From a virus: a stretch of 23,824 nt of DNA. Position numbers and translations under genes: made by a program. Shown in pieces: positions 1-22,181 of the stretch. The stretch is taken from the IMG/VR virus record IMGVR_UViG_3300035661_002495, positions 1-23,824 of that record; one strand, written 5' to 3'. Position 1 is the stretch's first letter. Every line of letters starts with the position of its first letter. The notes beneath the pieces were generated by a model. The model ran no database searches and was not told the DNA's origin. It saw only the letters and a list, made by a program, of their open reading frames with translations.

Positions 1-716
1 TGCTGGAAACGGTATGAGTCGTTCCCTGTCTCGACGATATGGCAGTGATGCGTCAGGCGATCAAGCAGTGCCGTGGTCATCTTCGCGTCACCGAACACGG
101 CTGACCATTCCGAGAAGCTCAGGTTGGTCGTTATGGCGACGCTGGTGTGCTCATACAACTTCGACAGCAGGTGGAACAGTAGCGCCCCGCCGGCCTGGCT
201 AAATGGCAGATAGCCCAGTTCATCAAGGATGACCAGATCCATGCGCATGAGCGAGAGCGCGATCCGGCCCGCCTTGCCGTCGCGCTTTTCGCGTTCGAGC
301 AGGTTGACCAGGTCGACCGTTGAGTAAAAGCGCACCCGCTTGCCCTTGGCCGCGATGCCGGCCACCGCGACCGCCGTCGCCAGATGCGTCTTGCCGGTGC
401 CGGGACCGCCGATGAAGACCGCGTTCTGGGCCGTGTCGGTAAAGGCAAGCGTGGCCAACTGGCGCACCAGTTCCTGGTCAACCTTCGAGGCCTCGAAGTC
501 GAAGCCGGCCAGATCACGGTGCGCGGGGAACTTGGCCGCGTTCATCTGGTGGCTCACCGAACGCATGGCGCGGTCGGTGTTCTCGGCTCGCAGCAGGTGC
601 TCGATCAGCCACTTCGACGAATCGACCATGCTGGCCCCTTGCGCCATCAGATCGCTCCAAGCGCTGACCATGCCGTGCAAGCGCAGGTCCTTGAGTTCGG
701 CAGCGACGTCACGCAT
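1..716 (-). CDS. istB: IstB-like transposition helper ATPase, 3' end outside the window
   Basis: IstB is the AAA+ ATPase that helps the IstA transposase choose and capture target DNA. The first 238 residues are visible; the family is usually about 250-265 aa, so only the C-terminal tip is missing. A Walker A motif GGPGTGKT lies at residues 103-110, a Walker B motif LVILDELG at 161-168, a sensor-1-like ITTNLS at 195-200 and an LLDR arginine at 220. The N-terminal 80 residues are the helical IS21 adaptor part. The ATG at 716 overlaps the istA stop by 8 nt (ATGCGTGA), which suggests translational coupling. I see no frameshift or lost motif in the visible part. Confidence 0.93.
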
Positions 717-2220
717 GATCGGCCTCCACGGTGATCTCATCGGCTTCGCGCAGGCTGTCGTAGCGGCCGGTATTTGCCACCGGCGCCTCCCTCAGTTCCA
801 GGCTGGTCTCGACGCACTCTGGCGCCGGTGCGGCATTGAGCCGTGCCAGCACATTTTCCACATGCTCGGCACTGAGCACGCCGGACTCAATCACCAGTTC
901 GACCGCGACCAGCACCGCCGACAGTCCTGCCGTCGGAACGGCGGCCAGTACATGCGCCATGACACGGTCACCACCGACATGGCGCATCAATCCTTGCTTG
1001 AGGCGCTGCAGCGGTACTGGCAAGTCTGCGAACGGGGCGCCATTGCGCAGCGCGCCGGGTTTGCGCTGAATGAGAGGAATGTAATGCTGCCAGTCGTAAC
1101 AGACCTTGTTGCGGTCGACGATGCGTTCGTGGGTGGCAACGATGGCATCGCCGGCCGCTACGCACACCCGCGTTGGATAGAGGCGCGTGCTGACCATCTG
1201 GCCGGCCAGTTCGCAGGGCACCGAGTACCGGTTGCGCTGCACCGTGACCAGGCAGGTCGACGACACGCGAGCCGCCTTCTCGACGTAGCCGTCAAAGGGC
1301 GTCGGCATGGGCATCAACTGCGACTGCTCCTGTTCGAGCATGTCGGCCACGCTGAGCGCCTCGCATTCAGGATGGCGTAGCTCGGACCACAGCTCCCGAC
1401 AGCGTTGCCCTAGCCAGGCATTGAGCTCATCAAAGGAGCCAAATTGGCGGGTGCGAGCTTCGATCCAGATCCGGCGGCGACTGTCCTGCACGTTCTTCTC
1501 GACCTGCCCCTTCTCCCAGCCCGAGGCCACATTGCAGAAATCAGGATCGAACAAGTAATGCGCGCACATGACGGTGAAGCGTACATTGACGGTACGACCC
1601 TTGCCCTTGTTGACCTTGTCCACGGCGGTCTTCATGTTGTCGTAGATGCCCCGGCGTGGCACCCCGCCCAACGCCGCAAAGGAGCGCGTGTGGGCGTCGA
1701 ATAGCATTTCATGGCCCTGGCTTGGATAGGCCACCAGCCAGAACGCGCGGCTGGCGCACAGCTTCATGTGCGAAACTTGCATGCGGCGGTAGATGCCGCC
1801 AATGACCAGCCCTTCCTCACTCCAATCGAACTGGAACGCCTCGCCATCTTCGAAGCTAAGAGGAACAAAGGCGTGTGGTGCCTTGCCTTCGGTCTCGCGC
1901 CAGGCACGGATGAAGGCGGTGACTTGGCAATAGGCGCCGCCGTAGCCACTCTCCTTGATCTGGGCAAACAGGGCCTTCGCGGTGCGGCGGTTCTGTTTGA
2001 TGCGGTGGGCATCGGCCTTCAGCGCCAACTCCAGCGCCGCGTGAAACGGCGTCAACTTGCCAGGCCCCGCTTCACGTCGATAGACCGGCGCCGTCACTTC
2101 CTCGTCCGTGCGCAGCCACTTCTTTATCGTATTGCGGGACAGGCCGGTACGCTTTGCAATCTCGTGTAACGACAACTGGTCGCGCAGGTGCATCCTGCGA
2201 ACTTTTCCAAGCATTTCCAT
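709..2220 (-). CDS. istA: IstA-like DDE transposase of IS21 family
   Basis: This is the transposase that cuts and joins the ends of the element. From the ATG at 2220 it is 503 aa; an upstream ATG at 2229 would add three residues (numbering below uses the 2229 start). I prefer 2220 because AAGGA then sits 8 nt upstream. An N-terminal helix-turn-helix (about residues 16-40, [19 protein letters not shown]) binds the ends. The DDE core is visible as D135 in FQFDWSEE, D197 in IYDNMK and E244 in GWEKGQVE, with spacings of 61 and 46 residues, as expected for an rve-type IS21 transposase. The C-terminal half fits the family's beta-barrel region. The gene looks complete and functional. Confidence 0.94.
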
Positions 2221-2241
2221 GGTGATCATCCTTTCTTGTCT

Positions 2242-6477: not shown

Positions 6478-6505
6478 TCATGTGCTCCCTGTCAGGTGAT
6501 ACGAG

Positions 6506-8105
6506 TCAGCTTCCAAATACAAGTGCATAGGCGATCGGATCGACGTAGCCCGGTATTTGCGCGGCGGTCGGCAGATTGGACAGATCTGTGTAGCTGCCGG
6601 AGGTCGCAATTGCCGCCAGGCCCGATATATCGCTGGCGCCAAGCAGCACAGCACCTTGCCGGCCGGCCACCGATAGCACCAGATTGCCGGCCGTTGCTTG
6701 CTGCGCCCCTTGTGCGGCGATCGCAGCGGAGGCTGCGGCATCGCTCGCCTTGCTGGTCGCGGTTGTCGCCGCCGATACTGCGGCGTCTCTGCTGGTTCCA
6801 GCGGTCGCTTCCGACGCTGCGGCATTGATGGCGGAAGTGTTTGCGCTGGTTGCTGCAGCAGTGGCGATGCCAACTTCGGTCGCCGCCGTGGCGGCGCTGG
6901 CGGCTGCGGCTGTTGCCTGCGTGGTGGCAACGACCGCCTGTGTAGAAGAGGTCACGGCGCTGGCTGCTGCCGCGCTTGCCTGGGTTGTGGCGATACCGGC
7001 CTGCGCGGATGCAGTGCCAGCCGCTGCGGTCGCTGTCGAAGTTTGCGCGGTTGCGATACCCGCCTGGGTCGTGGCAACGGTGGCGCTGCCGGACGCGGCG
7101 CTTGCCTCGGTTGTGGCAATCCCGGCCTGGGCTGTGGCAGTGCCCGCAGCCGTTGTTGCGGTGCTTGCCTGCGTGGTGGCGATTCCTGCTTGCGTCGTGG
7201 CCGTCGTCGCCGCTCCGGTCGCCGTTGTTGCCGACGCGGCTGCACCGGCTGCGCTGAGAACGGCGCTTTGCGTGGCGGCCTGCGCCGTGCCATCGTAATC
7301 GGCCCATCCGCCGCCGCTGTATACGCGTAGCTTGCCGGAAACCGTATTGAAATATTCGGCGCCTGCAGTCAGGGCGTTGCCGTTTCCATCGGTACTCGGG
7401 TCGGAACTGAAATGACCGAGAAACACGGAGCGAAAAAATGACAAGGCCGCGTTCAGTGATGAAGCCGATCCCAGCCTGCGTGGTCGCCGTGCTTGCCTGC
7501 GTCGTTGCGATTCCGGCCTGGGTCGTGGCAGCGTTCGCGGCAGCGCTTGCCGTCGTCGCCGAGGCCGCAGCGGCGTTCTGGCTTGCCAGTGCGTTGGCCT
7601 CAGCGGTCAGATTGGCGGGATTGACGTCGCCGACATCCCCTTTCTGGCCCTGAATCGAACTGGATTTCCATGTCGTCCCGACCCACACATACAGACTGCT
7701 GCCGATCAGATAGGCATCCCCTGTTGCGCCGGAAGCGGGCAGCAGGCTGGGATCGGTCAGTACGCCTTTCAACTGCAGGCCGGCGCCGACAAGGTCGCCG
7801 GCCAGGTAGGCATCCCTGAAACCGCCGAAGGTGTTTAATAGTGAGGATGCCTGCGCGGCCAGATCGACAATGTAGGATTGCGTCGGTGCAATCGCATACG
7901 GCGCATTCGCTGCGGTCATGCCGGCGTAATTGGCGACCAGCGTCAACGCGGTCGCGCTGGCCACGCTGTTGACCTCGTAGATATGGCCATCCGGGGCGCA
8001 GAATATGCCGCCTGGCGAGACATTCGACACGAAGTCGGTGCCGATGCCGGTAACGGCATTGCTGCCATTGGTCAGCGAGACCGATCCTGTTTTATACCAG
8101 GCCAT
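6506..8105 (-). pseudogene. Ala-rich phage tail fibre gene broken by one-base insertion
   Basis: The N-terminus MAWYKTGSVSLTNGSNAVTG with a following GTxF..NV segment is the common head domain of tail fibres that attach to the baseplate or tip. Residues 160-211 are a shaft of Ala/Thr repeats (ATTQAGIATTQAS). At GGG 7470-7472 the frame is lost: read straight through, the rest is Arg/His/Gly-rich nonsense to a stop at 6492. Removing one G restores ATTQAG-SASSLNAALSFFRS, then a domain SSDPSTDGNGNALTAGAEYFN typical of tail fibres and a long second Ala/Thr shaft, ending VDPIAYALVFGS at 6506. The corrected product would be 532 aa. It could be a real mutation or a sequence error; no slippery heptamer is present. 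Confidence 0.85.
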
Positions 8106-8682: not shown

Positions 8683-9023
8683 TTTGTAACGGTAAAAATG
8701 GCGTCGAGATAGGGGAAAGCGGTCACGGTGACGGTATAGGTGCCCACCAGCGCCAGATTAAGCGTCGCCGTGCTGTCGGTGCAGGGGTATTCGGATGCAT
8801 TGATCCGGATCACGCACGGTACCGGCAGGTTCGACAGGATGGTGCCGGAAAGCGTGGCCGGGTTCGCCGGCCTTGGTGTTGCCACTTCACCGACGATGTA
8901 CTGGAGATCTGCGTCTGCGGTGCCGACATAGATATTTCCGTCCTGTAGTTCCAGCATACTGGTGGGCATGCTGCCGGTCGCCAGTATCTTGCCGGTGTCA
9001 TCATATTTCGCAAAATCTGTCAT
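8679..9023 (-). CDS. Tail-tip accessory protein following J, 114 aa
   Basis: Starts MTDFAKYDDTGKILATGSMP at an ATGA overlap with the J stop and ends with an ATGA overlap with the 55-aa gene. The first part (KYDxTGKILxxGSMP...LELQDGNIYVGTADADLQYIV) is a pattern common in small phage proteins near J. The second part (TLSGTILSNLPVPCVIRINASEYPCTDSTATLNLALVGTYTVTVTAFPYLDAIFTVTK) looks like an immunoglobulin-like beta domain. Such domains are often displayed on phage particles and may bind surface sugars. No enzyme motif is seen. The longer open frame upstream to 9473 is an out-of-frame reading of J. Confidence 0.8.
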   Translation of the reverse strand: MTDFAKYDDTGKILATGSMPTSMLELQDGNIYVGTADADLQYIVGEVATPRPANPATLSGTILSNLPVPCVIRINASEYPCTDSTATLNLALVGTYTVTVTAFPYLDAIFTVTK

Positions 9024-12000
9024 CGCATGACTCCCAGTATTGTGATCGCCCACTGCCCCAGATTCCAGGTGCCGCCGCCGGGCCAGTCGTTGCCGAACCA
9101 GAGCGTGAATGAATGTGCGCCCGCGCCGAGACTGACGACGGTCGACGCAACATGCGAAGTCGTGATGCTGGAAGGTGCGGTGTCCGATGCAGTCAGCACT
9201 ACTCCGCCATCCGCGTGAACCTCGACCCGGGAGTTGCCACCTCTGCTGCCAGGCACTCCGGTCTGCCAGGTGACGATAATGACCACCGGCGTAGTAACTG
9301 GATAGCTGACATTCATGGCGGCCGCCGCGACCTGCGACATCACATAACTTGCGCTGCCCGTGAACGGCCCGGCGCCGCCATTGCCGCTGATCGATGCAGG
9401 GACCGTGACGGCGTTGCCGCCGATGCTGAGCGTGCCAACCGCCGCCGCAGCGATCTTCGCGTTCGTTATCCATGCGGTGCCGATGAGCGCCTGGCTGATA
9501 AAGGTCTGCCCGCCCTGTATCACGAACGGCGTGGTCAGGGTGCCGCTGCTTTCATCGATCATCGCGATGCGGTTGGCGGACAGCAGGATCTGCGATTCGA
9601 CGATGCCGGTGCTGTTCGAGACGCCGACGCCGATTGATGCCAGATAGGTACTACCTCCGACGGCGATCTGGGTCTTGATCGTCGACATTGCCGACAACTG
9701 GCCATTGGTTCCGGCGATCGCGCTGGTGGCGGTCTGTGCCGACGCACTGGCGTTATTCGCGGTTGCCGCGACCGTCGTGATGCTAGACGACAACGCACTG
9801 TCGGCACTGGCGCGCGAGCTCGCCTCCGACTGGATGGCGGCGATATTGCCGTTGGCCGTTGCTACTACGCTGTCGATGCGGGTCGACAGGGCGCCGTCCG
9901 CACCGGCCCGCGCATATTGTTCCGTGACGATGGCGGCCGTATTGCCATTGGCGGTCGCGGCCACACTGTCGATCCGCGTCGACAAGGCACCATCGGCACC
10001 AGCACGTGCAATCTGTTCGCTGGTAATGGCTGCCGTATTGTTGGCGGCAGTCGCCGCCACGGTTGTCACCAGCGTCGAAATCGCGCTATCGGCATTGGCG
10101 CGCGCGGTCTGTTCGGAGAGGATCAGCGCAGTATTGCCGTTGGCGGTCGCTGACACGCTGCTGATCTGGCTGGCCAGCGCATCGGTTGCGGTGATGCGCT
10201 GGGCCGTTTCTGTCGTTACCTGGGCGGCGACACCGCCGATGGTGGTGGTCAGGGTATCCCGCGCGATTTTGAGTGCGTTGTCTGCGGCGATCAGGCCGGT
10301 CAGCTGGGTCGCGGCCAGTTGGTCCTGCTGACCGACGCCGTTTAACAGTACGTCGATCTGCTGCAGCACCGGGCCTATGATTGCCTCGGCATCTTCGATT
10401 GGTTGCAGGACGTCCTGCCCGAGTTGCGTCTTGCCGATCTGGCCAGCCAGATAGCTGAGGATTTCGGTTGAGTCGGTACTGGTGGTGGCCGACGCCGGAC
10501 CCGACCAGGCGCTTGCGTTGCCACTGGTATCCACTACGCGCGCCCAGTAATAGAGCGTGATGCCGGCTGCCAGGCCCAGTTGCGTCCATTGTGCGGTCGG
10601 GTAGGCAATCTCGGCCAGTTTTACGGCATCGGTCTGGTCGTTTGATGCGCCGCCCCAGATCTCGATCAGCTTGGTATCGACCGATAGTGGGTAAATCCAG
10701 GCCAGCTGGATCTGGAGTATGCCACCTGAAGCAGACAGCGCCGTGAGCGGCTGCGGCGCACTGGTCTTGGCGCCGACCACATAGGTGAGGCTTGCTGGCG
10801 TCGATTCGAGGCCGATGGTGGAAACGGCCACCACGGAAAAATAGTACGTGCTCACGTCGACGTTGTCGATATCGATCGAACTCTGGTGCGCGTCGCGCGC
10901 GTCCGTCTGTCCGCTGGCGGTACGCCAGGAAACGTGGAAGGTTCCGGCAGCCGATGTCCACGACAGGGTTAGGCGCAAGCCGATCACCTGGCCCGCGACA
11001 ATATAGGGCGATGTCATGGCCGACAGATCGCAAGGACTATCCGGCACGGTCTTGATATTGCTGACCTGCGGCAGGTCGAACTGGGCACCGCTGTCGACCA
11101 GAGCGAACAGGCCGTCGTAGTGCGCGATGGCGACAATGTCGACCACATTGTTGCCGCTTTCCTGCACGCCCATCACGCGCCAGGTCTCGGCCGCCAGATC
11201 ATTGGCGGCAATCACGAAGATCGCATTGGTTTGCGGTGCCGCCGCCAGCGGTGGCGTGATGCTGACGGTGCGGGTCGTCCCCGGCGCATTGATGATTGCG
11301 CTCACATTGGTGCTGCCGTCGCTGCCGATCACGTTGATCGAGTAGGACTTGCCTTCTTCGATGACGAAGTCGGCATCCAGTGTCAGCGACGCGGGGGTGG
11401 ACGCAGGGGATGAACCTAGCCGGCCGCCCATGCGTTTGCCCGACCGGTTCAGGTCGGTGGTTTTGATGATCGCGCCAGGGTACAGCGTGCAGCTATCCAG
11501 CCCCGCCTTGAACGACAGGGATTCGGTCGCATATTTTTCCGTGGCCAGCAGCCACTGGCCCAGCCGGTGCGCCTGTCCCTTGGAGGCACAGCCAAATGCG
11601 GTCAATTGCGTCTGCACTACGCCCAGTTGCCTGATGCCGTCGTCGTCCTGTACATACTCGACCTTTTGCCGATAGAAGTCGGTCGGGTCGTTCCATGCCA
11701 CCAGGGCGACGGTGTGGCGCTGCTTGATCGAGGTGCCGGAGTAACTGAAGACCCCGTCAATGACGTTCGCATTGGTGTACAGCGCGCTGGCATCCGCCGG
11801 GCGATCCTGCATCGCGACGATGGTGCCGGCGCTCCAGAACGTGATCGCCCTGAAAATCGACGAAAAATTCTGGGCAACGGTATACGCTTCGGCGGATGTC
11901 TGCAGATACAGGTTGCAGGTAAAGCGCGGCTCGAACCCGCCATAGCCGTCCGGCACGATCTCATCGCAGTAACGTGCGATCGCATACAGCGACCACTTGT

Positions 12001-12982
12001 CGATACTGGATGGATCGATGAAATCACCCAGGCCGTAGCGGCTATTGGTCAGCAGATCATAAAAACACCAGGCCGGGTTATCCGACCATGCCAGCTTGAA
12101 GCTGCCATCCCATATATCGGCGTAGGTGCGCACGATCGGGTCATAATTGGCGGGCACGCGGATGATCAGTCCCTTGATGCCATACGCGCGACTCGGAATC
12201 GACGTGAATTGCGACGCGTCGATCTGCGTGCCGACCAGCGCCGAGTTCGGGTACGCCAGGCGCGAACTGACGATGCCGGTGTAACTGTCGAAGAAGGTTT
12301 TGTTGTTGACGGCGGAAGTCGTGGCATCGCCGCTGACACGCGTGACCCGCACATCCCACGGCCCCGTCCCATCCAGCCTGATCAGGTAAGCGCGCTGATA
12401 GCGGCTGCTGGTCTTGCCGGAAATGGTATCGCTGACTTTGTTGATGTAGCCGCCACCATCGGTCTGCACTTCAACCGTGATGTCGACGGAACTGCCGGTG
12501 ATGTTGCCGTTGGTGGTGTCCTGCGTGGTCAGTGCCGGCACCGATACGGTGACGCGCAGGCTGTCGAGATTCGGATCCGTCAGCGTGCGGACGATAGGCA
12601 CGCCGTTTTTGACCTCGACGCCGACCGCAGTTTCGTATTCAACGTCGGATACATTATCCAGCGGTAATTGGTCCTGCGTGCCGTTGCACCATTGCGCCGC
12701 GACGTTGACAAAATTAAAGGTGCCATCGGTATTTTGCAGCGGGCCGCCAGATACCTGAGCCGATCCATCCGGATTCTGCAGCGGCACCTCGTTCAGGTAG
12801 ATCGACTGCAAGCCATTGACCAGCCCGACGATCGGCCCTTCGCACAGCACATCGATCACCGTGGCGATCTGCGTGGAACGCAGGCTGTCGGAAACCTCCG
12901 TCGCACCGGACCCGCCACCGCCTTTGCTGCCACCCGCGCCGCGGATGGTCAGGGGCTTCATGGCGAAATTGACATCATTCAT
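9020..12982 (-). CDS. J: Tail-tip host specificity protein J (central fibre), 1320 aa
   Basis: Lambda J-type protein forming the hub and central fibre of the tail tip; it fixes host range. Start MNDVNFAMKPLTIRG overlaps the I gene stop as ATGA. The N-terminal half carries the conserved J core, including VIDVLCEGPIVGLVNG (about residues 40-55) and LLTNSRYGLGDFI (about 310), then the Phage-tail_3 region to about 470. Residues about 645-830 look like fibronectin-III-like domains, ending before EILSYLAGQIGKTQLGQDVL. Residues about 915-1065 hold five 30-aa repeats (TANGNTAAI..E..ARAxADGALSTRIDSV), a probable trimeric coiled coil. The last 170 residues form a distinct C-terminal domain, probably the receptor-facing tip. 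Lambda J is 1132 aa, so this one is somewhat longer. No frameshift seen. Confidence 0.95.
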   Translation of the reverse strand: MNDVNFAMKPLTIRGAGGSKGGGGSGATEVSDSLRSTQIATVIDVLCEGPIVGLVNGLQSIYLNEVPLQNPDGSAQVSGGPLQNTDGTFNFVNVAAQWCNGTQDQLPLDNVSDVEYETAVGVEVKNGVPIVRTLTDPNLDSLRVTVSVPALTTQDTTNGNITGSSVDITVEVQTDGGGYINKVSDTISGKTSSRYQRAYLIRLDGTGPWDVRVTRVSGDATTSAVNNKTFFDSYTGIVSSRLAYPNSALVGTQIDASQFTSIPSRAYGIKGLIIRVPANYDPIVRTYADIWDGSFKLAWSDNPAWCFYDLLTNSRYGLGDFIDPSSIDKWSLYAIARYCDEIVPDGYGGFEPRFTCNLYLQTSAEAYTVAQNFSSIFRAITFWSAGTIVAMQDRPADASALYTNANVIDGVFSYSGTSIKQRHTVALVAWNDPTDFYRQKVEYVQDDDGIRQLGVVQTQLTAFGCASKGQAHRLGQWLLATEKYATESLSFKAGLDSCTLYPGAIIKTTDLNRSGKRMGGRLGSSPASTPASLTLDADFVIEEGKSYSINVIGSDGSTNVSAIINAPGTTRTVSITPPLAAAPQTNAIFVIAANDLAAETWRVMGVQESGNNVVDIVAIAHYDGLFALVDSGAQFDLPQVSNIKTVPDSPCDLSAMTSPYIVAGQVIGLRLTLSWTSAAGTFHVSWRTASGQTDARDAHQSSIDIDNVDVSTYYFSVVAVSTIGLESTPASLTYVVGAKTSAPQPLTALSASGGILQIQLAWIYPLSVDTKLIEIWGGASNDQTDAVKLAEIAYPTAQWTQLGLAAGITLYYWARVVDTSGNASAWSGPASATTSTDSTEILSYLAGQIGKTQLGQDVLQPIEDAEAIIGPVLQQIDVLLNGVGQQDQLAATQLTGLIAADNALKIARDTLTTTIGGVAAQVTTETAQRITATDALASQISSVSATANGNTALILSEQTARANADSAISTLVTTVAATAANNTAAITSEQIARAGADGALSTRIDSVAATANGNTAAIVTEQYARAGADGALSTRIDSVVATANGNIAAIQSEASSRASADSALSSSITTVAATANNASASAQTATSAIAGTNGQLSAMSTIKTQIAVGGSTYLASIGVGVSNSTGIVESQILLSANRIAMIDESSGTLTTPFVIQGGQTFISQALIGTAWITNAKIAAAAVGTLSIGGNAVTVPASISGNGGAGPFTGSASYVMSQVAAAAMNVSYPVTTPVVIIVTWQTGVPGSRGGNSRVEVHADGGVVLTASDTAPSSITTSHVASTVVSLGAGAHSFTLWFGNDWPGGGTWNLGQWAITILGVMR

Positions 12983-13548
12983 ACCGCAACCTGCTCCACC
13001 GACAAGCCAGCGGAGACGACCTGTGAACCGATTATCATCGTGCCATAGCAGATCGGCACCGGATTGCCTTGCGCTGTCGTGTTGATCGGGCCATTGAAGC
13101 AATACGATGCCTGGTTATTGGCAGGCGTGGCAGGGCCGGGAGGGCGTATCAGCATCTGCGCGATACCGCCGACCACCATCGAAACGCCGATATTCACCAG
13201 CCACGACTGATCAAAATACGCGCCGACCACCACCAGGACGGCGCCCAGGATTGTCTGAAACACGCCGTGTCCGGCTCCGGCCACGACGGGTACGATCCTG
13301 ATGGCGGCATCGCTAACCGGTACAGACAGATCGTTTTTGCCGACATTGCGCTTGCCGACGAACACATGATAACCAGGCGCCGAATGCTCGAACATGTACG
13401 CCTCGAATCCTTCCAGATTGGCGCGCAGCGCGCGAATGGCTTCTGCCGGAGACTTGACGTCGAAGCGGAACACCCGCCCGAACCGCTTGCCCAGATGCCC
13501 GTACAGTCTCACTTCACGCATCGCGTTTTGCATCGCATTGTGCATCAT
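12979..13548 (-). CDS. I: Tail assembly protein I, 189 aa
   Basis: Lambda gpI-type protein, needed for tail-tip assembly and generally not retained in the tail. The N-terminal part (REVRLYGHLGKRFGRVFRFDVKSPAEAIRAL) is the ubiquitin-like fold of this family, followed by VFVGKRNVGKNDLSVPV and two hydrophobic Gly/Val-rich segments (GVFQTILGAVLVVVGAYF and LVNIGVSMVVGGIAQMLI, residues about 95-135). It ends with NPVPICYGTMIIGSQVVSAGL, the conserved end of the family. The double ATG at 13548/13545 has AGGAG 5-8 nt upstream. The gene overlaps the 3' end of K by 35 nt and J by 4 nt. Confidence 0.92.
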   Translation of the reverse strand: MMHNAMQNAMREVRLYGHLGKRFGRVFRFDVKSPAEAIRALRANLEGFEAYMFEHSAPGYHVFVGKRNVGKNDLSVPVSDAAIRIVPVVAGAGHGVFQTILGAVLVVVGAYFDQSWLVNIGVSMVVGGIAQMLIRPPGPATPANNQASYCFNGPINTTAQGNPVPICYGTMIIGSQVVSAGLSVEQVAV

Positions 13549-14278
13549 CCAGGCTCCTGTGTCGCACTACCTTGACGGTGCTGCGCTGCCAGTAGCCGCC
13601 GTAGATATCGCGGCTCGACAGGCGGTTCATGCAGTGCTGCAAAATGCATCCGTCGCCGATGTATACGGCGGCGTGGTTCGGCACTACCGAGCCGATTTGC
13701 ATTAACAGCACATCATGTTTTTGCATTGTGTCTTCCGCGGCTACCGGGACGAAGCCCGCTTGTCCGAAATTATGCAGATACAGATTGCTGCCCTTTGCGT
13801 TGCGCTCTTTCAGCCACCATTCCTCGTCGCGCTCGAAATCAGGAATGTCAAGCGACAGTTCGCACCGGTAGTAATCCCGGATCAGCGAGTAGCAGTCCAG
13901 AATCCCGTGCGAAAAATTGCGCCCTACCAGCGGCGCCTGATAACCTGTCGGCGCAAACGTATGGATCGCACCCGTGGGCCAGTTGACGATGATCCACGGC
14001 AAGCCCGAGCGTTCGCAGCCAACCAGATCGGCCTCGGACGGCAGCGGCGACATGCCGGGATGGCTGTGGACGATGTGCGTGATCTCGCCGGCTTCCTCGG
14101 CTGCGGCATAGTCTTCCGGCCTGATCGCGAAGTGGCTGTTACCGGAAGCGATATTGGCGCAGGGGATATAGCGCTGTCTGCCACGGGCGATGATCACCAC
14201 GCCGCAGCATTCGCGCGGATAGGCGCGTTCGGCGTCGGCGCGGATCGCTGCGAGAACAGAATCGGTGACCGGATTCAT
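13514..14278 (-). CDS. K: Tail-tip protein K: JAMM peptidase plus NlpC/P60 domain, 254 aa
   Basis: Lambda gpK-type tail assembly protein. The N-terminal JAB/MPN domain keeps the full metal set: E23 in RECCG, H71 and H73 in HSHPG, S81 and D84 in PSEAD. The C-terminal NlpC/P60 domain keeps C129 in ILDCYSLIRDYYR and H202 in PNHAAVYIGDG, so both a metallopeptidase and a peptidoglycan cysteine hydrolase activity are possible. This would suit opening the cell wall on infection or processing tip proteins. Start MNPVTDSVL overlaps the L stop as ATGA; the frame upstream is an out-of-frame reading of L. All key residues are present, so it looks active. Confidence 0.94.
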   Translation of the reverse strand: MNPVTDSVLAAIRADAERAYPRECCGVVIIARGRQRYIPCANIASGNSHFAIRPEDYAAAEEAGEITHIVHSHPGMSPLPSEADLVGCERSGLPWIIVNWPTGAIHTFAPTGYQAPLVGRNFSHGILDCYSLIRDYYRCELSLDIPDFERDEEWWLKERNAKGSNLYLHNFGQAGFVPVAAEDTMQKHDVLLMQIGSVVPNHAAVYIGDGCILQHCMNRLSSRDIYGGYWQRSTVKVVRHRSLDDAQCDAKRDA

Positions 14279-14979
14279 TGCACCAGCCCACAGCCGGGGA
14301 AGCCGCCATACGGCAGGACACCAGTACCGAAGCGCAATTTGCAGTCGGTGAGCCGCTTGCCGCACAGGTCCTGGGTAAGGTCAGTGGTGGCCGTGCCGTC
14401 CTCATTGGCGACTGCGCCTCCTGTATATCCGCACTCGGGCGAGCGATAGACCCAGGCGCAGCAATTCTGGATCATCTGCCGACGCGGCAGCGTCACGCCC
14501 TGCATGTCCAGTGCAGATGCCAGCTCGAATTCCAGTGTTGACGGGTTTTCGTTCGATTTGCGGTCGATGATCCAGATATCGTCCGGCAGCGCCTGATTCG
14601 GATCAGCTTGCGGGTTACCGGCCGCGAAGTTTGCGGCGTCCAGGAAGCGCGCAAAGGTGCGCTTGCGGATGAATTTGCATCCCAAAAAATAGCCGAACTG
14701 GCGCGCCTCGGCGCCCATCAGTCCTTGTGTATTGGATACTTTCACCAGTGGACGCGGCAGCGCGCCCGTGCTGCGCTTGTCAAAACCAGTCGCTTCGATC
14801 GGAAAGCGGGCATAGGTCTGCCCCTGCCACACGACGTCACCGGCCAGTTCGTTGGTGCCGGCATGAAAATAAAACATGCCGCCCCCCTGTTTGCTCAGGT
14901 CCAGCACGAACAGTTCGATCATTGCCGAAGGCGCCAGACTTTGTATTTCAGACTGGATGGTTTCAGATTGGAGTGTCAT
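14275..14979 (-). CDS. L: Minor tail protein L, 234 aa
   Basis: Lambda gpL-type tail-tip hub protein. The pattern APSAMIELFVLDLSKQGGGMFYFHAGTNE at residues about 17-45 and FPIEATGFDKRSTGALPRP at 59-77 are typical. The C-terminal third has the family's conserved cysteines: NCCAW (about 177), PECGY (about 187), LCGK and DCKLRFG, expected to hold an iron-sulphur cluster. The start is 54 nt after the M stop; there is no clear ribosome site and the hairpin at 14986-15010 lies immediately upstream, which may lower its expression. Its stop overlaps K as ATGA. Confidence 0.93.
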   Translation of the reverse strand: MTLQSETIQSEIQSLAPSAMIELFVLDLSKQGGGMFYFHAGTNELAGDVVWQGQTYARFPIEATGFDKRSTGALPRPLVKVSNTQGLMGAEARQFGYFLGCKFIRKRTFARFLDAANFAAGNPQADPNQALPDDIWIIDRKSNENPSTLEFELASALDMQGVTLPRRQMIQNCCAWVYRSPECGYTGGAVANEDGTATTDLTQDLCGKRLTDCKLRFGTGVLPYGGFPGCGLVQ

Positions 14980-14985
14980 GGATGC

Positions 14986-15010
14986 AAAAATGCCGCTCGG
15001 AGAGCGGCAT
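14986..15010 (-). terminator. Terminator-like hairpin between M and L
   Basis: On the minus strand ATGCCGCTC, loop TCC, GAGCGGCAT form a perfect 9-bp stem, followed by TTTTGC. It ends 7 nt before the L start codon, with no space for a promoter after it. It may reduce expression of the tail-tip genes relative to tube and tape measure genes. Confidence 0.7.
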
Positions 15011-15033
15011 CATGGTTGATGAGTGATTAATGA

Positions 15034-15369
15034 TTAATTCCCGAAATCCTGCTCAAAGGTGGCGGTGATTGTCCACAATTTGTCGGTGTTGATTTGCGCC
15101 GCATAGTCGGCGCAGGTAAAGCGGAAACTGACCACCTCTCCCGGCGGCTGCCAGTCGAACGCAGTTACGCCGGCGGCAGCGCGCAGAAAACCCATGATCG
15201 CGTCGCGGTCGGCGGCACGCTTGTTCGAGAACGTGAGCGACCATGACTGCGGGTTGATATTCAGGCCAAATGCCGTGCGCTGCGCATAGCCGTCCCCGAA
15301 CTTGGCGACCACGACTCTGGGTTTTTCGGTGAGCTGGGCGTTGCTGGGCGGGAAAGTAAAAGCCGTCAT
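15034..15369 (-). CDS. M: Minor tail protein M, 111 aa
   Basis: Lambda gpM-type (Phage_min_tail) protein of the tail tip. It shows the family pattern: an N-terminal MTAFTFPPSNAQLTEKPRVVVAKFGDGYAQRTAFGLN, a central WSLTFSNKRAADRDAIMGFLRAAAGVTAFDWQPPGE, and a final LWTITATFEQDFG. The length matches lambda M (109 aa). The ATG overlaps the tape measure stop as ATGA. No unusual features. Confidence 0.94.
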   Translation of the reverse strand: MTAFTFPPSNAQLTEKPRVVVAKFGDGYAQRTAFGLNINPQSWSLTFSNKRAADRDAIMGFLRAAAGVTAFDWQPPGEVVSFRFTCADYAAQINTDKLWTITATFEQDFGN

Positions 15370-18134
15370 GTCGCTAATAACCCGCCGGAGCGCTTCTCTG
15401 TCACGATAACTTCACGTACCTTGGCGGCGATCAAGGTGCCGAGTTGCGTCATCTGCTGCGCATTGCCGGTCGACGAGGTGGTGCTGTCGCCGGTTTGCGC
15501 ATTCACGGTGATATTGACTGAAATGTCCCCGCTGCTGGCAGGTGGATTTCCGGCCAGGCCGCGAATCACGTCTGCCTGCTGCGCCGGCAGCACCATTTCG
15601 TTTTCATGCAACTGCGTCAGCGGATTCACGCCGGACGGTACGTCATAGCCGCTGGCAGCCGACATCACATCCATGCTGGCGCCGGCATCGCCACCGGCCC
15701 ATAAACCTGACGAACCGGTGCCGGAGCCGGTGCTGCCGCCCGATCCGAAGCTGAAGCCGGACGAGAAGCCGCCCACCGCCATGTCAACAATTCCGGCGAT
15801 CGCTTTTTTAATCAGGATGCGCTCTATATCGGCGAGGATGGAAGTCGCCAGACTCTTGAACGACAGCTTCCCGGTCTGCACAAAATTGACAAAGGCATCT
15901 TCGGCGCCTTTGAAGGCATTGTCCATTGCGTTGCCGATTTGCGTGCCGACATCATTGGCAGCCTCTCCATACTTGCGGATGGATTCGCGGGCGTTGAACC
16001 ACGGATCCTTCTGTTTGTCATTTTGCTGCTGGATCAGGTCGATCGCCTTCTGGGTTTGTGCGGAGCCGGCAGCGAGTGCGCCGGAGACGTCTGCATTGGG
16101 ATCCTTCAACCTCAGTTGGCGGATCCGCTCCTGCACTTCCAGATCGACTTTGTGCGCGGCGGTCAGCTTGGCAACTTCAAGGGTGCTTTTGCCCATCAGA
16201 TCGATCGAAAATTGCTGCTGGGCGTTCGACAATTCCTGGTTACGGATCCATTCGATCGTGGCGCGGTTGAAGTCGGAGTAGATCTTGAGCTGCTCGGAAC
16301 CGGCCTTGATCATAGCCGAGCTGGCCTCGGCTTCCGCTGCGGCGCGCTTCGCGGCAATCTCGATCAGCTTGACGTCGGCAGCGGCAATTTTTACCTTGTC
16401 GGTGTCGGTGCTGAGTGCTGCCTTGTACTTGACCACCGCAGCCGCTTCCTTGTCGTAAGCGGCCAGAGTCTCTGCATAGTTGTCGGCGATGAGTTTGCGT
16501 CTCTCGTCGTAATAGGTGCGGGCATTGATGTATTCGCTGTCATACGACTGTTTCAGGAAAGCCGTGCGCGTGTCCATGCTCTTTTTCTCGGCGGCGATCA
16601 GGGCGTCTTCTGATTTCAGGTAGCCTTCGAGGATTGTCTTTGCCGGATCATCTGCCGGGCCGTCCGGTTTTTCCTTTGGCTTCGGCACCCATGTCTTGCC
16701 TTTGGCGTTTGCCATGCCGGACGCGTTACGATCATCCAGCGCCCATGCCTGTTTCATCGCGTCCGCGTTATGCCGCGCTTGCGCGACGATGTTGTCGCCG
16801 ATCTCGCCCAGCCGGCCTTTTGCATCGGTCCAGCCGGCAATCAGTGCATTCTTTGCGCCGGTAAAGTCACCCTGGAGCACCTTGACTCCGGCAGTCGCGA
16901 CGCCGCCCAGGCTGGAGCCAATGGCGGCGATGCTGCCGACGATCGATTCCGCCACGATGTAGACCACGGTCTTGAGGCCGTAGAAAAGTGACGTGATGGT
17001 CGCGAGGCTGTAGCGGAAGGTATTGACCGCAAACGGAAAGCCGTCGCGGAAAAATTCCGCAAAGTCGGTCAGGACCGGCATGATACTGTCGGCCCACGCG
17101 CGCTTGAATCCATCCGATGTCAGTTCGGTTTCGCGATTGAAGTCGCGCATCGCATCTTCATACCGTTTGACCTCCGCCTGCGAATCGGCGCCGATGCCGA
17201 GGTTATAGTCGTTCAGGCGACTGGAGGCGGCTGCCATCGCTTCTTTGGTAACCGTTGCAGCCGCAGCGACCTGTGCTGCTGTCCCGAGTCCCAGCGATGA
17301 CGCTGCCTGATTGCGGTCCCAGCCCACCGTGTATTCATTCAGAACCGCGTTCGCATTCTGGATCGTATCCGTCAATGGCAGCAGGTTGCCGTTCGCGTCC
17401 TTGTATTTGACCCCGAGGCGATCAAGTTCGTCGGTGTTGGTGCGGATCGCGCTGGCTGCGTTGCTGAACACCGACGTGTAATCCGATTTGTTCACGCCGA
17501 GCGCAGCGATCGCCGCGTTGGTTGCCGACGCCTCCTGGGCTGTCAGATTCAGAGAATGCTGGATTTCCTTGATCTGGTTGTTGGTCGCGACAAGCGCGTC
17601 GATGCTGGGACTCTTGTAGCTTTCGCCAGTGAACAGGCCTTCGATGAAACCTATTGCTTCCTTTATCACTTTGTAGGTGACGTAGATTGCAGACAGCGCA
17701 GCGGCGCTGACGCCTGCGATCAGCGCAATGCCGGTGATGACCAGCTTGGTCTCAACGTAGGATTTGAACGCCCCGATGGCGTTGTCGGCAGTAGTTGCTC
17801 CGGCTCCTACGCCGGCCCCGAACGCCGCAGCGAATTTCTCGGAGGTTGATTTGAAATCGACGTTGTCGGCGGCGTTTTGCAGGTCGTCGAGCGCGGCGGT
17901 TGACTTTTCGGTACTGGAAGCAATCGCATCGTTGGCCGCTTCCATATTGGTGCTCATGGCTTTGGCCGCACGTTCCAGTTCAGTGGCGGCTTGCATCAGG
18001 CTGCTCTGGAATTGCTCGACCGATGCCGTCGAGTCGCCCATGCCCGACTGAGCCGCACGCGAAGCAGCGTCCATGTTGCTCACGAATCGGGATACGTCCG
18101 CGTTGACCGTGATGGAGAGATTGCCAAGAGCCAT
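15366..18134 (-). CDS. H: Tail tape measure protein (lambda H type), 922 aa
   Basis: Sets tail length and is ejected into the host envelope on infection. The chosen start MALGNLSITVNADVSRFVSNMDAASRAAQ matches the usual N-terminus of this family. It has no good ribosome site, and the open frame extends 30 codons further into the HigB promoter region without support. Residues about 131-160 (VITGIALIAGVSAAALSAIY) and about 390-420 (VVYIVAESIVGSIAAIGSS) are hydrophobic, as expected for membrane insertion. Long Ala/Lys/Glu-rich helical parts fill the middle. The end FVNFVQTGKLSFKSLATSILADIERILIKKAIAGI is the lambda TMP C-terminal domain. Lambda H is 853 aa, so the tail should be a little longer than lambda's. 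Next upstream on this strand is the opposite-strand HigBA cassette. Confidence 0.94.
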   Translation of the reverse strand: MALGNLSITVNADVSRFVSNMDAASRAAQSGMGDSTASVEQFQSSLMQAATELERAAKAMSTNMEAANDAIASSTEKSTAALDDLQNAADNVDFKSTSEKFAAAFGAGVGAGATTADNAIGAFKSYVETKLVITGIALIAGVSAAALSAIYVTYKVIKEAIGFIEGLFTGESYKSPSIDALVATNNQIKEIQHSLNLTAQEASATNAAIAALGVNKSDYTSVFSNAASAIRTNTDELDRLGVKYKDANGNLLPLTDTIQNANAVLNEYTVGWDRNQAASSLGLGTAAQVAAAATVTKEAMAAASSRLNDYNLGIGADSQAEVKRYEDAMRDFNRETELTSDGFKRAWADSIMPVLTDFAEFFRDGFPFAVNTFRYSLATITSLFYGLKTVVYIVAESIVGSIAAIGSSLGGVATAGVKVLQGDFTGAKNALIAGWTDAKGRLGEIGDNIVAQARHNADAMKQAWALDDRNASGMANAKGKTWVPKPKEKPDGPADDPAKTILEGYLKSEDALIAAEKKSMDTRTAFLKQSYDSEYINARTYYDERRKLIADNYAETLAAYDKEAAAVVKYKAALSTDTDKVKIAAADVKLIEIAAKRAAAEAEASSAMIKAGSEQLKIYSDFNRATIEWIRNQELSNAQQQFSIDLMGKSTLEVAKLTAAHKVDLEVQERIRQLRLKDPNADVSGALAAGSAQTQKAIDLIQQQNDKQKDPWFNARESIRKYGEAANDVGTQIGNAMDNAFKGAEDAFVNFVQTGKLSFKSLATSILADIERILIKKAIAGIVDMAVGGFSSGFSFGSGGSTGSGTGSSGLWAGGDAGASMDVMSAASGYDVPSGVNPLTQLHENEMVLPAQQADVIRGLAGNPPASSGDISVNITVNAQTGDSTTSSTGNAQQMTQLGTLIAAKVREVIVTEKRSGGLLAT

Positions 18135-18172
18135 GTTTTTTAGCAAAGACGCGTGAAATGGGTTGAATGGGC

Positions 18173-18209
18173 TATAATGTTTGCTGCTTACCGATAAACG
18201 ATATATAAT
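18173..18209 (+). promoter_or_regulatory. Promoter region of higBA with two TATAAT boxes
   Basis: TTGCTG (18181-18186), a 17-base spacer and TATAAT (18204-18209) form a near-consensus sigma-70 promoter. Its expected start lies almost on the higB ATG at 18216, so the transcript may be leaderless; no ribosome site is visible. A second perfect TATAAT at 18173-18178 has no good -35 box and would give a leader of about 30 nt. The short inverted repeat ATATA...TATAT (18201-18217) around the proximal -10 box could be the HigA operator. Confidence 0.7.
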
Positions 18210-18215
18210 CTGTAT

Positions 18216-18494
18216 ATGATTCAATCATTCGCCTGCGCCGATACGCAAAGGCTTTACGAAGGCAAGAAAGTTGCTCGTTTCGCCAACATCGCCTCAGTTG
18301 CAGAACGGAAATTGCAACAACTTGACAGTGCTGCGACGGTGGATTTTCTGCGATCGCCGCCGGGTAACAGGCTGGAGCAATTGAGCGGCGACCGGGCCGG
18401 ACAGCACAGTATTCGTATTAACGCGCAATGGCGACTTTGCTTTGTCTGGTCCGAGAAGGGGCCGGAGCAAGCCGAAATTGTCGATTATCACTAG
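18216..18494 (+). CDS. higB: HigB-like toxin (RelE-fold mRNA interferase), 92 aa
   Basis: HigB/GraT-type toxin that cleaves mRNA on the ribosome. The family pattern is complete: an N-terminal MIQSFACADTQRLYEGKK, RKLQQLDSAATVDFLRSPPGNRLEQL (residues about 31-56), GQHSIRINAQWRLCFVW (62-78) and AEIVDYH at the end. The basic and aromatic catalytic surface (R68, R73, Y91, H92) is present. It precedes its antitoxin, the normal order in higBA. It lies on the strand opposite to the tail operon, between the tape measure and GT genes, so it looks like a moron that serves lysogen maintenance or stress response. Confidence 0.93.
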   Translation: MIQSFACADTQRLYEGKKVARFANIASVAERKLQQLDSAATVDFLRSPPGNRLEQLSGDRAGQHSIRINAQWRLCFVWSEKGPEQAEIVDYH

Positions 18495-18503
18495 GAGCAC
18501 AAC

Positions 18504-18815
18504 ATGACCAAATTCAAGAACGGCATGCGCCCGATACACCCGGGCGAAATCCTGCGCGAGGATTATCTGAAGCCGCTTGACATGAGCGCGCATGCGCTGT
18601 CCAAGGCGCTGCATGTACCGCCGGCCCGTGTCAACGATATCGTTTTGGAGCGGCGTGGCATCTCGCCGGATACTGCCCTGCGGCTGGCCAGGTATTTCGG
18701 CGGCGATGCGCAGTCATGGCTTAATCTTCAACAGGCTTACGATCTGAAATTGGCCGAGAAAGAGGTGCTGCCGAAAATCGTCAAGGAAATTCAACCGATG
18801 GCGCTTGCGGCTTAA
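18504..18815 (+). CDS. higA: HigA-like antitoxin, 103 aa
   Basis: XRE-type helix-turn-helix antitoxin of the HigA/VapI family. It begins with the family signature MRPIHPGEILREDYLKPL and has the DNA-binding helices at about residues 27-74 (SAHALSKALHVPPARVNDIVLERRGIS...LARYFGGDAQSWL). It neutralises HigB and represses the operon. The start has GGAG 7 nt upstream and lies 9 nt after the higB stop. It seems complete. Confidence 0.94.
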   Translation: MTKFKNGMRPIHPGEILREDYLKPLDMSAHALSKALHVPPARVNDIVLERRGISPDTALRLARYFGGDAQSWLNLQQAYDLKLAEKEVLPKIVKEIQPMALAA

Positions 18816-18820
18816 ACAAT

Positions 18821-19222
18821 ATGTCCGAACAACTTGCATACACGTTGGCCGCAGCTTGTTTTGGTTTCATATCGGCGATTTATTTGTGTATCGGCACAGC
18901 ACTTCTTAGTCAACGGAAAATGGTCTTGTTGTGTGGGACCTATTGGGGATTCAACGAAGAGCAGGCGCGCGCAATCGTTTCTCAATCAACGCAATATGCA
19001 ATTGGCGGGCTATTACTAGTCGTATCGTTTTTTCTTCAAGTTGTGGCAACCCTTGCATCGGCAACCAATCGGATCACGCTTTATACAGTTTTTACCCAAC
19101 CATTGATTTTTGTTGCATTTATTCTTGTCGTGCTCGGAATTTTGTCTTTTGCGACCTATCGGATAGCCATTTCATTCCGGTTGCCGCAGGCAATCGCGGC
19201 TCTAAGACCTCCAGTTGCATAA
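18821..19222 (+). CDS. Three-helix membrane protein of unknown function, 133 aa
   Basis: Starts MSEQLAYTLAAACFGFISA 5 nt after the higA stop, so it is probably in the higBA transcript. Hydrophobic helices are clear at residues about 5-29, 56-82 and 90-113. A soluble loop (QRKMVLLCGTYWGFNEEQARAIVSQ) lies between the first two. Base composition is more AT-rich than in the flanking tail genes, which suggests separate acquisition. No family recognised. Small membrane proteins in phage morons often block superinfection or change the envelope; that is only a possibility here. It ends 12 nt before the convergent GT stop. Confidence 0.7.
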   Translation: MSEQLAYTLAAACFGFISAIYLCIGTALLSQRKMVLLCGTYWGFNEEQARAIVSQSTQYAIGGLLLVVSFFLQVVATLASATNRITLYTVFTQPLIFVAFILVVLGILSFATYRIAISFRLPQAIAALRPPVA

Positions 19223-19234
19223 TTGCATACGGCT

Positions 19235-19941
19235 TCAATGTTTTCCGGTATCCAATTGTTGTCGCAGTGCCTCGAATCCCATCAGCAGCTTGTGTTGCGC
19301 CGCCGTCAGGCCATTGACGCGGACTGGTTCATCCGGGATGGTATGTGGTTTCTGTTGCGGGGTGCTGAATATCAGGAATTCGCTCAATTGGTACGGATCA
19401 GGACGTTTCTTGCTGTCGCGATTCACATTGGCGATGATCGACGCCAGATGGGCCTGCATGGCATCCTGCACCGACAATCCCCACGGCTCAACGGCATAGA
19501 ATTCCTGCAATTCCAGGTAATCGGCGTAAGGCATGGCATCTATTTCGCCCGGCAACTTGCCAAGAGTGATCGCCAGTCTGCATCTGAAACGGCGATCCGG
19601 GCTGTCTCTTAGTTTTTTGTGTCGGCAACCTTCTTGAAGCCGTTAACTTCAAGCGCCTTGCCAACCAGCACATCCATGACGGCGTTGCTGGCCGACTTCA
19701 AAGCCGGCATGTCTGCATCCATAAAAACACGATTGCCGTCGCTGTCCACCACCGACAGTATGACCATGTTCAGACCGAACTGGTCGGTTTTATCATCACT
19801 TTTGAGAGCGGAGCGGAGCCCCTCAACCTCCGCCACGCTCAACTGCATGATGCCGATTTCGCCGAATCCATCGACGGCAAATAAGATGGTTTTAGGTTTC
19901 AACGCAAGCAGCAGCGCTGCCTTATCAAATTGTAGTGTCAT
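19235..19941 (-). CDS. GT: Tail assembly chaperone GT, made by -1 ribosomal frameshift (235 aa)
   Basis: In lambda-like phages gpGT binds the tape measure and tube proteins during tail assembly. The T part is in the -1 frame relative to G and has no start of its own with a good ribosome site. Reading through the slippery site at 19612-19618 joins G to SPDRRFRCRLAITLGKLPGEIDAMPYADYLELQEFYAVEPWG, which is the usual T sequence (RxAxxLGxTVxEL..MxxxEL.EW.AYY.LEPWG). The T part continues VNRDSKKRPDPYQLSEFLIF and ends at 19235. The fusion is 110 + 125 residues. T stops 12 nt from the convergent membrane-protein gene. Confidence 0.88.
19568..19618 (-). promoter_or_regulatory. Programmed -1 frameshift signal: A-AAA-AAC plus stem-loops
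   Basis: The minus strand at 19618-19612 reads AAAAAAC, in the G frame as ACA-AAA-AAC, a canonical X-XXY-YYZ heptamer. The G stop TAA follows at once. Downstream, GATCGCC (19597-19591) and GGCGATC (19574-19568) form a perfect 7-bp stem 14 nt after the heptamer. A possible outer stem pairs GCCCGG (19602-19597) with CCGGGC (19552-19547), 9 nt after the heptamer. Confidence 0.88.
19609..19941 (-). CDS. G: Tail assembly protein G, 110 aa (unshifted product)
   Basis: Lambda gpG-type tail assembly chaperone, made when the ribosome does not shift. It begins MTLQFDKAALLLALKPKTILFAVDGFGEIGI and has the helical and beta pattern of the family, with ADMPALKSASNAVMDVLVGKALEVNGF before the slippery end ADTKN. 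It lies 12 nt after the tube gene. A lambda-like ratio of G to GT is expected, since an excess of G is needed. Confidence 0.85.
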   Translation of the reverse strand: MTLQFDKAALLLALKPKTILFAVDGFGEIGIMQLSVAEVEGLRSALKSDDKTDQFGLNMVILSVVDSDGNRVFMDADMPALKSASNAVMDVLVGKALEVNGFKKVADTKN

Positions 19942-19953
19942 GTTTTTTTCTGA

Positions 19954-20373
19954 TTAGCTGGTAATGGTAACGCCGGTGATCTTCAGGCTGATGGAGAGAT
20001 CGAGTTTGCCATCGACCTTGGCGGTCGGACCGTCGTATTTGGTGACATAGGCGTTGAAGCTGATCGTGATTGGTGTCGCCGATCCACCTAAAATCAACTG
20101 GTAGGGAGATGTCTGGCCTGCCAGCACGTCGGCATAGAGCGCCTTTTGCACTGCGCCGCCGGTGTAATTGCAGGTCAGCGTAATGGTGCCGGGGTCGAGC
20201 AGACCCGGCACCGATTCCTTGCCCAGTGACAGCAGATGTGTGACGTCGACCACGGCGACACTGACGCCGCCGAGTTGAATATCGGTGCATTCTTCAATGT
20301 CGGCGAAGACGACCGGGTTGGCGCCGGTACCGTGTTGCAACCTCGTACCCTGGCTGCGAATGGCGTTGGTCAT
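19954..20373 (-). CDS. V: Major tail tube protein (lambda V-like), 139 aa
   Basis: Forms the stacked rings of the tail tube. The start MTNAIRSQGTRLQHGTGANPVVFADIEECTDIQLGG and the following VVDVTHLLSLGKESVPGLLDPGTITLTCNYTGG are typical of short siphovirus tube proteins. The end ...TAKVDGKLDLSISLKITGVTITS is the common closing beta strand. It lacks the C-terminal Ig-like domain that lambda V (246 aa) carries. Ribosome site AGGAG, 6 nt before ATG; an overlapping out-of-frame ATG lies 4 nt upstream. It is the first intact gene of the late tail module here. Confidence 0.85.
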   Translation of the reverse strand: MTNAIRSQGTRLQHGTGANPVVFADIEECTDIQLGGVSVAVVDVTHLLSLGKESVPGLLDPGTITLTCNYTGGAVQKALYADVLAGQTSPYQLILGGSATPITISFNAYVTKYDGPTAKVDGKLDLSISLKITGVTITS

Positions 20374-20390
20374 GCATGGCTCCTAAAATG

Positions 20391-20411
20391 AAAAAGCCGC
20401 CCGGAGGCGGC
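20391..20411 (-). terminator. Terminator-like hairpin upstream of the tube gene
   Basis: On the minus strand GCCGCC, loop TCCG, GGCGGC form a 6-bp GC stem followed by TTTTT. It is 17 nt upstream of the tube gene start. It is the same design as the hairpin at 8469-8491, differing mainly in one base pair. Confidence 0.7.
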
Positions 20412-20432
20412 CATCTGTGAAAGAAAGAATTG

Positions 20433-20560
20433 CTAGTCGTAAAACCAGAGTGAAAAATCGATACGCTCGCGAAACAGCTTGGTGTCCGGTTCGAACGTCG
20501 CGCCTTCCCCGATATGAACCGCGCCAAGAACCGGATTCGCCAGCATCGCCTGTTGCGCGA
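20433..20560 (-). pseudogene. C-terminal fragment of a tail gene (possible tail terminator)
   Basis: The last 40 or so residues before the stop at 20433 (AMLANPVLGAVHIGEGATFEPDTKLFRERIDFSLWFYD) read like the end of a small siphovirus tail protein, and the place just before the tube gene is where tail terminator or completion genes normally lie. Upstream of about 20560 this frame is only an out-of-frame reading of the primase-like fragment, so the N-terminal part is gone. The family is inferred from position and a general pattern; it could be another head-tail joining protein. Confidence 0.45.
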
Positions 20561-20796
20561 TCGGTCCATAACCCAGCCTTTTCGCTATCGAGGACGATCT
20601 CCAAGCTGTCGCCCGGGCTGCCCAATACGTCACCGATATGAAACTTGCCGCGCCGAACTTTGCCAGCCGGAAAAATGCTGAGCAATGCCGATTCAAGCCG
20701 CGTCAGCAAGGCCGCCCGGATTTCTTTTCGCTGATGATCGCCATTACCTGTGCGCGGCGTGGCGGGCAAATCTCCGTCATCATTGAAGTCGATCAT
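20535..20796 (-). pseudogene. N-terminal fragment of a phage/plasmid primase-like protein
   Basis: Starts MIDFNDDGDLPATPRTGNGD with a perfect AAGGAGG ribosome site and an ATGA overlap with the upstream gene. Residues about 40-86 (LLSIFPAGKVRRGKFHIGDVLGSPGDSLEIVLDSEKAGLWTDRATGDAGE) match the N-terminal segment I associate with primase-helicase proteins of phages and genomic islands (GxFxVGDxxGxPGDSLxVxLxGxxAGxWxDxATGxGGD). After about position 20535 the reading changes to Arg/Ser-rich nonsense until a stop at 20383, and the primase core is absent. The fragment looks like the survivor of a deletion that joined two modules. Confidence 0.6.
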
Positions 20797-21029
20797 TCGG
20801 CCTCCTTGATGGCAGGCTGGGCACTCTCGCTTTGTGCCCACGCTGTGAGTTCGGACATGCGAAACCGCACCAGTCCACCAAGTAGGTAGTGGGGAATCCG
20901 TTTGGCTGAGCGCATGCTGCGATCGCTGAACCAGTAGTACGGCAGGCGAAGCGCATAGGAGGCTTGGCGGGCGTCGACCATGCCTTCGCTGGTCATCGGC
21001 ACTGGGAGATGCACATTCTCTTCATTCAT
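20793..21029 (-). CDS. Small AlpA/excisionase-like DNA-binding protein, 78 aa
   Basis: Starts MNEENVHLPVPMTSEGMVDARQASYALRLPYYWFSD at an ATGA overlap with the preceding gene and overlaps the primase fragment as ATGA. The segment MVDARQASYALRLPYYWFSDRSMRSAKRIPHYLLGGLVRFRMSELTAWAQ has the winged helix-turn-helix layout of excisionase/AlpA proteins: recognition helix, then R-x-P-(H/F)-Y-x-x-G-x-L-V-R-F and a final helix. Likely controls transcription or excision of the element. Family assignment rests on this pattern. Confidence 0.65.
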   Translation of the reverse strand: MNEENVHLPVPMTSEGMVDARQASYALRLPYYWFSDRSMRSAKRIPHYLLGGLVRFRMSELTAWAQSESAQPAIKEAE

Positions 21030-21244
21030 GGTTTTGTCCTCCAGCAACGATCTGCCCACGCGCAGAACTTGCATTCGAAATGGGTGGAATCGGTGAACGA
21101 GCGCGGCAGCAGATCTCCTGCTTCACTGGCGGTGATAACGCGCGCAGCACGGTCCGACATGCGCTGCGCCAGGGCTGCATCGAACGGAATCAGTTCGGCG
21201 TAGATCTCCATCGTGTCGGCGGGGAATATGGTCAGGTCAGTCAT
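21026..21244 (-). CDS. 72-aa Cys-rich protein resembling a RecB/Cas4-like nuclease C-terminus
   Basis: The ATG at 21244 has AAGGA 7 nt upstream; ATG 21250 and GTG 21259 are alternatives, the last overlapping the previous stop. The segment IYAELIPFDAALAQRMSDRAARVITA followed by HFECKFCAWADRCWRTKP is like the end of PD-(D/E)XK phage exonucleases, where CxxC...C helps hold a metal or Fe-S centre. The catalytic core is absent, because families of this kind are near 250-300 aa. Either it is a remnant or a small protein evolved from one. Translation is coupled to the next gene by ATGA, so it is probably expressed. Confidence 0.6.
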   Translation of the reverse strand: MTDLTIFPADTMEIYAELIPFDAALAQRMSDRAARVITASEAGDLLPRSFTDSTHFECKFCAWADRCWRTKP

Positions 21245-21255
21245 GGCCATTTCCT

Positions 21256-21519
21256 TCACAGATACGCACGAGCGGAAGTCGAGTGGCGTGAAACGCGCCG
21301 CTCAAACGATTCGACTTCGGAGATCAGGTAGGTGACTCGGGCGCCCAGCTTGCAGAAGACTGGACCCAAGGACTCTTGCCGCCAGCGGCGCAAGGTTTTG
21401 ACAGAGAGCCCCCAGCGGGTAGCGAGCTCGTTTTCGTCGAGGGCGATGCGCGTGACACCGCCCGGCAGGTTGTGGCTGGAAAAACGACCGGATTGAACAG
21501 ATGGGGCTTGTGTTCCCAT
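21256..21519 (-). CDS. Helix-turn-helix DNA-binding protein, 87 aa
   Basis: First gene of the four-gene minus-strand operon. Residues about 26-75 (ALDENELATRWGLSVKTLRRWRQESLGPVFCKLGARVTYLISEVESFERR) form an excisionase-type winged helix-turn-helix: ELAxRWxxSxxTLxRWR...GPxFxKLGxRVxY. This is typical of small regulators in genomic islands and phages. The N-terminal 25 residues are unordered. It stops 3 nt from the GTG of the next frame. No strong ribosome site or promoter was found upstream in 21520-21560. Confidence 0.75.
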   Translation of the reverse strand: MGTQAPSVQSGRFSSHNLPGGVTRIALDENELATRWGLSVKTLRRWRQESLGPVFCKLGARVTYLISEVESFERRVSRHSTSARAYL

Positions 21520-22177: not shown

Positions 22178-22181
22178 TTGG

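Follow-up and report, generated by a model that had tools for sequence, protein, structure and literature searches.

A primase-tail terminator join at six shared bases in a probable degrading lambda-like prophage remnant

We observed that a metagenomic virus record of 23,824 bases, analysed in full and hereafter called the window, carries on its minus strand a join between the start of a phage primase gene and the end of a tail terminator gene, with the exact microhomology GCGATG (20544..20549) at the point of contact. Judging from the sequence and its relatives, this feature most likely marks an illegitimate, microhomology-associated deletion within one prophage, that is, within the genome of a temperate lambda-like siphophage. 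The minus strand further holds a lambda-like tail module (tube, chaperones, tape measure, M/L/K-like proteins, tip protein J and fibres), upstream of which lie a small number of ORFs of regulatory and replication type; no host flanks were recognised in this metagenomic window. We regard the finding as ordinary prophage decay, and the element as a degrading lambda-like prophage remnant.

The join and its two parental genes

We compared the window base by base with relatives of both sides. On the primase side, loci L012-L015 match at 93-94% DNA identity from window position 21220 down to 20537, where the match ends and their own primase sequence goes on. On the tail side, loci L003-L007 match at 80-90% DNA identity from 20549 downwards, and upstream of that position their sequence carries on as tail terminator. 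The original prediction had placed an out-of-frame junction between a primase-like N-terminus and a tail gene C-terminus at about 20535-20560 on the minus strand, and had proposed alignment to the full-length genes of relatives; this alignment located both breakpoints in that interval, together with the shared GCGATG. A looser homology spans 20537-20549, in which L012 differs from the window only at 20543, L003 at 20541 and L004 at 20543. Since the window shares its C at 20543 with L003 but not with L012 or L015, the crossover most likely lies inside GCGATG. At random joins of these two genes, at least six identical bases are expected with a probability of 0.0023.

The primase remnant (20537..20796, minus strand) retains ~86 codons from the start of the gene for a ~766-aa D5-type phage primase/helicase and is 94% identical in DNA to L012-L014. 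The full-length primase of G012 (766 aa from the aligned start) matches D5_N and phrog_6088 DNA primase, which bears out the primase-like assignment. Because D5_N starts at residue 332 of that protein, the 86-residue stump contains none of it. Among the 161 closed primase-type ORFs in the fetched loci, window and L002 included, 152 are 700-799 aa long. Another short primase ORF, of 146 aa, starts at L128:2291 in a Nitrosomonadales MAG. A primase search of bacterial genomes returned relatives of the primase part only, mostly in betaproteobacterial records. When 300 genomes from a single order were searched, the primase/exonuclease and HTH segments found matches that end at the same break edges, and none crosses the junction.

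The tail gene at the join is the tail terminator itself. Its remnant (20433..20549, minus strand) preserves ~38-40 codons from the 3' end of a 119-aa gene of the tail completion gp17 family, identified through the intact homologue L003:3098-3457 (119 aa), which matches the tail completion gp17 and tail terminator families (PF11367 and phrog_78). In close relatives the terminator is complete at 119 aa. A search of bacterial genome contigs with the neighbouring tube protein found no relative.

The terminator frame ends at 20433, and 20796 to 20435 is 361 bases; the primase and terminator frames therefore differ, as predicted. Translation across the join instead yields a chance 137-aa ORF (20383..20796, minus strand), in which the primase N-terminus is followed by out-of-frame tail DNA up to a stop at 20383. 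This ORF gave a weak primase match in its N-terminal part only and no Pfam match. We considered a functional primase-tail fusion gene and rejected it: outside the window the join occurs only in L002, where the fused frame stops after 67 codons, and relatives have full-length separate genes, with a ~700-790-aa primase and a 119-aa terminator. No intact orthologue of the fused length was found.

L002 is a separate public contig with the identical junction, flanked by 100% and 99.98% identity on the two sides, and was the only other record retrieved in an exact-junction pattern search of viral contigs. The junction is therefore not a one-off assembly error. The join is present in a second assembly, which may come from the same population. 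It also carries a 60-bp insertion (L002:2320-2380), ~100 bases from the join and absent from the window, which is made up of a 28-bp repeat whose copies are separated by 32 bp of unknown origin.

Missing genes and a second deletion

TerL, portal, protease and capsid genes are absent from the window, and primase, exonuclease and terminator are truncated. This agrees with the original prediction for the head and packaging genes; the terminator, which it had also listed as missing, is truncated at the join rather than wholly lost. The intact relative G006 (54.3 kb) carries on one strand, in order, the primase, a gene related to the ParB/methyltransferase-like gene of G012, TerL, portal, an S49-type protease, capsid, terminator and tube, and the arrangement of the window fits this module order. 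In G006, ~18.3 kb separate the primase break site from the terminator break site (positions in L183, part of the same record). G012 has the replication side but a different tail; in G006 it is the tail that is shared, and the primase is more distant. An intact phage with an L012-type primase and an L003/L004-type tail at high identity was not found among the fetched loci, and a terminase-protein search for an intact parent returned none with both modules at high identity.

Further upstream we found a second deletion junction with the microhomology GCCGACA (21214..21220, minus strand). Its two sides lie 1.7-4.1 kb apart in 59 other loci, which are partly overlapping pieces of the same record and not all independent; in L012-L014 the distance is 4,005 bases. 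They are adjacent only in the window (L001 being part of it) and in L002, and bacterial-genome matches end at the same edges. A 7-base match at this join has a chance probability of 0.0007. The element has thus undergone at least two deletions. The prediction of a single deletion or recombination holds for the cause of the primase-terminator join, but one event is insufficient for all missing genes.

At the second junction, a 77-aa ORF (21026..21259, minus strand) fuses in frame a leader, MTDLTIFPAD, with the C-terminal ~64 aa of a Cas4-like exonuclease. It matches phrog_1990 at positions 180-239 only, without most of the PD-(D/E)XK domain; G012 has the full 250-aa gene. Both this ORF and the 137-aa ORF at 20383-20796 should be annotated as gene remnants. 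Beyond this region, on the plus strand, overlapping genes for an HTH protein and a PIN-domain protein (21716-22754) are likely a toxin-antitoxin pair, the latter with 82% identity in G017. Next to them lies an open-ended 350-aa protein (22774-23823, plus strand) without a Pfam match, whose sole match is phrog_37634, of unknown function.

Remaining tail genes and selection

The tail tube gene (19954..20373, minus strand) is intact; its product matches phrog_158, with Phage_TTP_11 below its cut-off, and is 96-100% identical among close relatives. The rest of the tail module (chaperones, tape measure, M/L/K-like proteins and tip protein J; 9020..19941, minus strand) is open. Relative to G003, one tail fibre gene (6492..8105, minus strand) aligns with a 74-base deletion and a frameshift; the other tail genes are open. 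An IS21-type istA/istB (3..2229, minus strand) occupies the left end of the window, and the adjacent phage gene (2292-2597) is shortened relative to its homologue in G003.

Polarising the tail-gene changes with G006, we counted 245 synonymous and 44 amino-acid changes on the window branch (dN/dS about 0.06), and 284 synonymous and 26 amino-acid changes on the G003 branch (about 0.03). The window value is about twice as high (Fisher p 0.011). This pattern is consistent with prolonged selection in a phage and only a brief relaxation thereafter, which suggests that the deletion is probably recent.

Several other features of the tail region were observed. A terminator-like hairpin, GCCGCCTCCGGGCGGCTTTTT (20390-20411, minus strand), lies just ahead of the tube gene start; it is conserved in G003, occurs in G006 with an altered loop, and has short matches in several bacterial genomes. 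A HigBA-type toxin-antitoxin pair (18216-18815) sits on the plus strand, opposite to the tail operon, between the tape measure and chaperone genes. The tail fibre protein at 4361-5866 (minus strand) contains five CBM_5_12 carbohydrate-binding stretches.

Origin of the join and known systems

Deletion inside one prophage is the simplest account of these observations. The ancestral genome would have carried, all in one direction, regulation, replication (exonuclease, primase), terminase, portal, protease, capsid, connectors, tail terminator, tube and tail. The hexamer GCGATG of the primase gene may have paired with its copy in the terminator gene, by slipped replication or end annealing, with the loss of ~18 kb and a primase stump left out of frame with a terminator stump. 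Both parental segments would then have been present in one prophage beforehand. The similar upstream deletion of about 4 kb, the fibre-gene frameshift and the IS21 insertion are signs of further decay. Both stumps are expected to be non-functional, and the element accordingly to be unable to replicate or package itself.

Direct observation covers the two parental segments, where they break, the bases they share and the genes that are lost; the origin of both sides in one prophage is the probable part, no intact parent that combines them having been retrieved. A single recombination at the short shared sequence could instead have joined two separate phages or prophages, an L012-type partner giving the replication side and an L003/L004-type partner the tail side. 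Phages of this group are mosaic, and each of the two sides has its nearest relatives on a different contig (G012 versus G006). However, gene order and direction match an intact genome and make a second partner unnecessary, and a join of the same type is seen at the second deletion close by; we consider such an exchange rather unlikely. It is highly improbable that two phages were joined at a short overlap by chimeric assembly or a library artefact, as a metagenomic record with a short overlap and the odd insertion near the join in L002 might suggest: a separate contig has the exact same junction with 99.98-100% identity on both sides, and the overlap falls far below the k-mer lengths commonly used in assembly.

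We also weighed whether the host keeps the head-less element as a tail-like bacteriocin (F-type tailocin). The deletion would then have been favoured for stopping phage replication while sparing the production of tail-like particles, despite the shortened terminator. Reading frames are open from the tube gene through to the tip protein gene, and dN/dS on the window branch is low, but a low value is equally expected if the deletion is recent, and it exceeds that of the G003 branch. A complete tail module with terminator and fibres is not present, given the truncated terminator and the frameshifted fibre gene, and we judge both the tailocin and its selective advantage scarcely plausible.

Among known systems, the element is closest to defective (cryptic, incomplete) prophages, in which terminase, portal and capsid genes are likewise gone and tail genes and a transposase are kept, a reported trend (PMC7744054). 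Essential replication and packaging genes have been lost relative to intact relatives, and we found no structural difference from such prophages, except that the window is known as a virus record without recognised host flanks. The two joins also resemble short-homology illegitimate recombination in bacteria and phages: identical parental bases beyond chance are present at both, six at the first and seven at the second, although the mechanism is here deduced from sequence. Illegitimate recombination is among the discussed causes of variation in bacterial genomes (PMC2884548), and the literature on prophage deletions at microhomology provided general background only. Because both the trend and the process are already reported, the finding is correct but ordinary. 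It offers a base-resolved example of a temperate phage becoming a defective prophage through two deletions with 6-7 shared bases at the joins, which removed replication and head genes, whereas the majority of tail genes stayed open. Since this process is familiar, the value lies mainly in correct annotation.

Among lambda-like siphophages, G006 and G012 differ from the window in keeping terminase and head genes, of which the window has none. Related replication genes occur in G012, and related tail genes in G006 and, over a short stretch, in Acidithiobacillus phage AcaML1.
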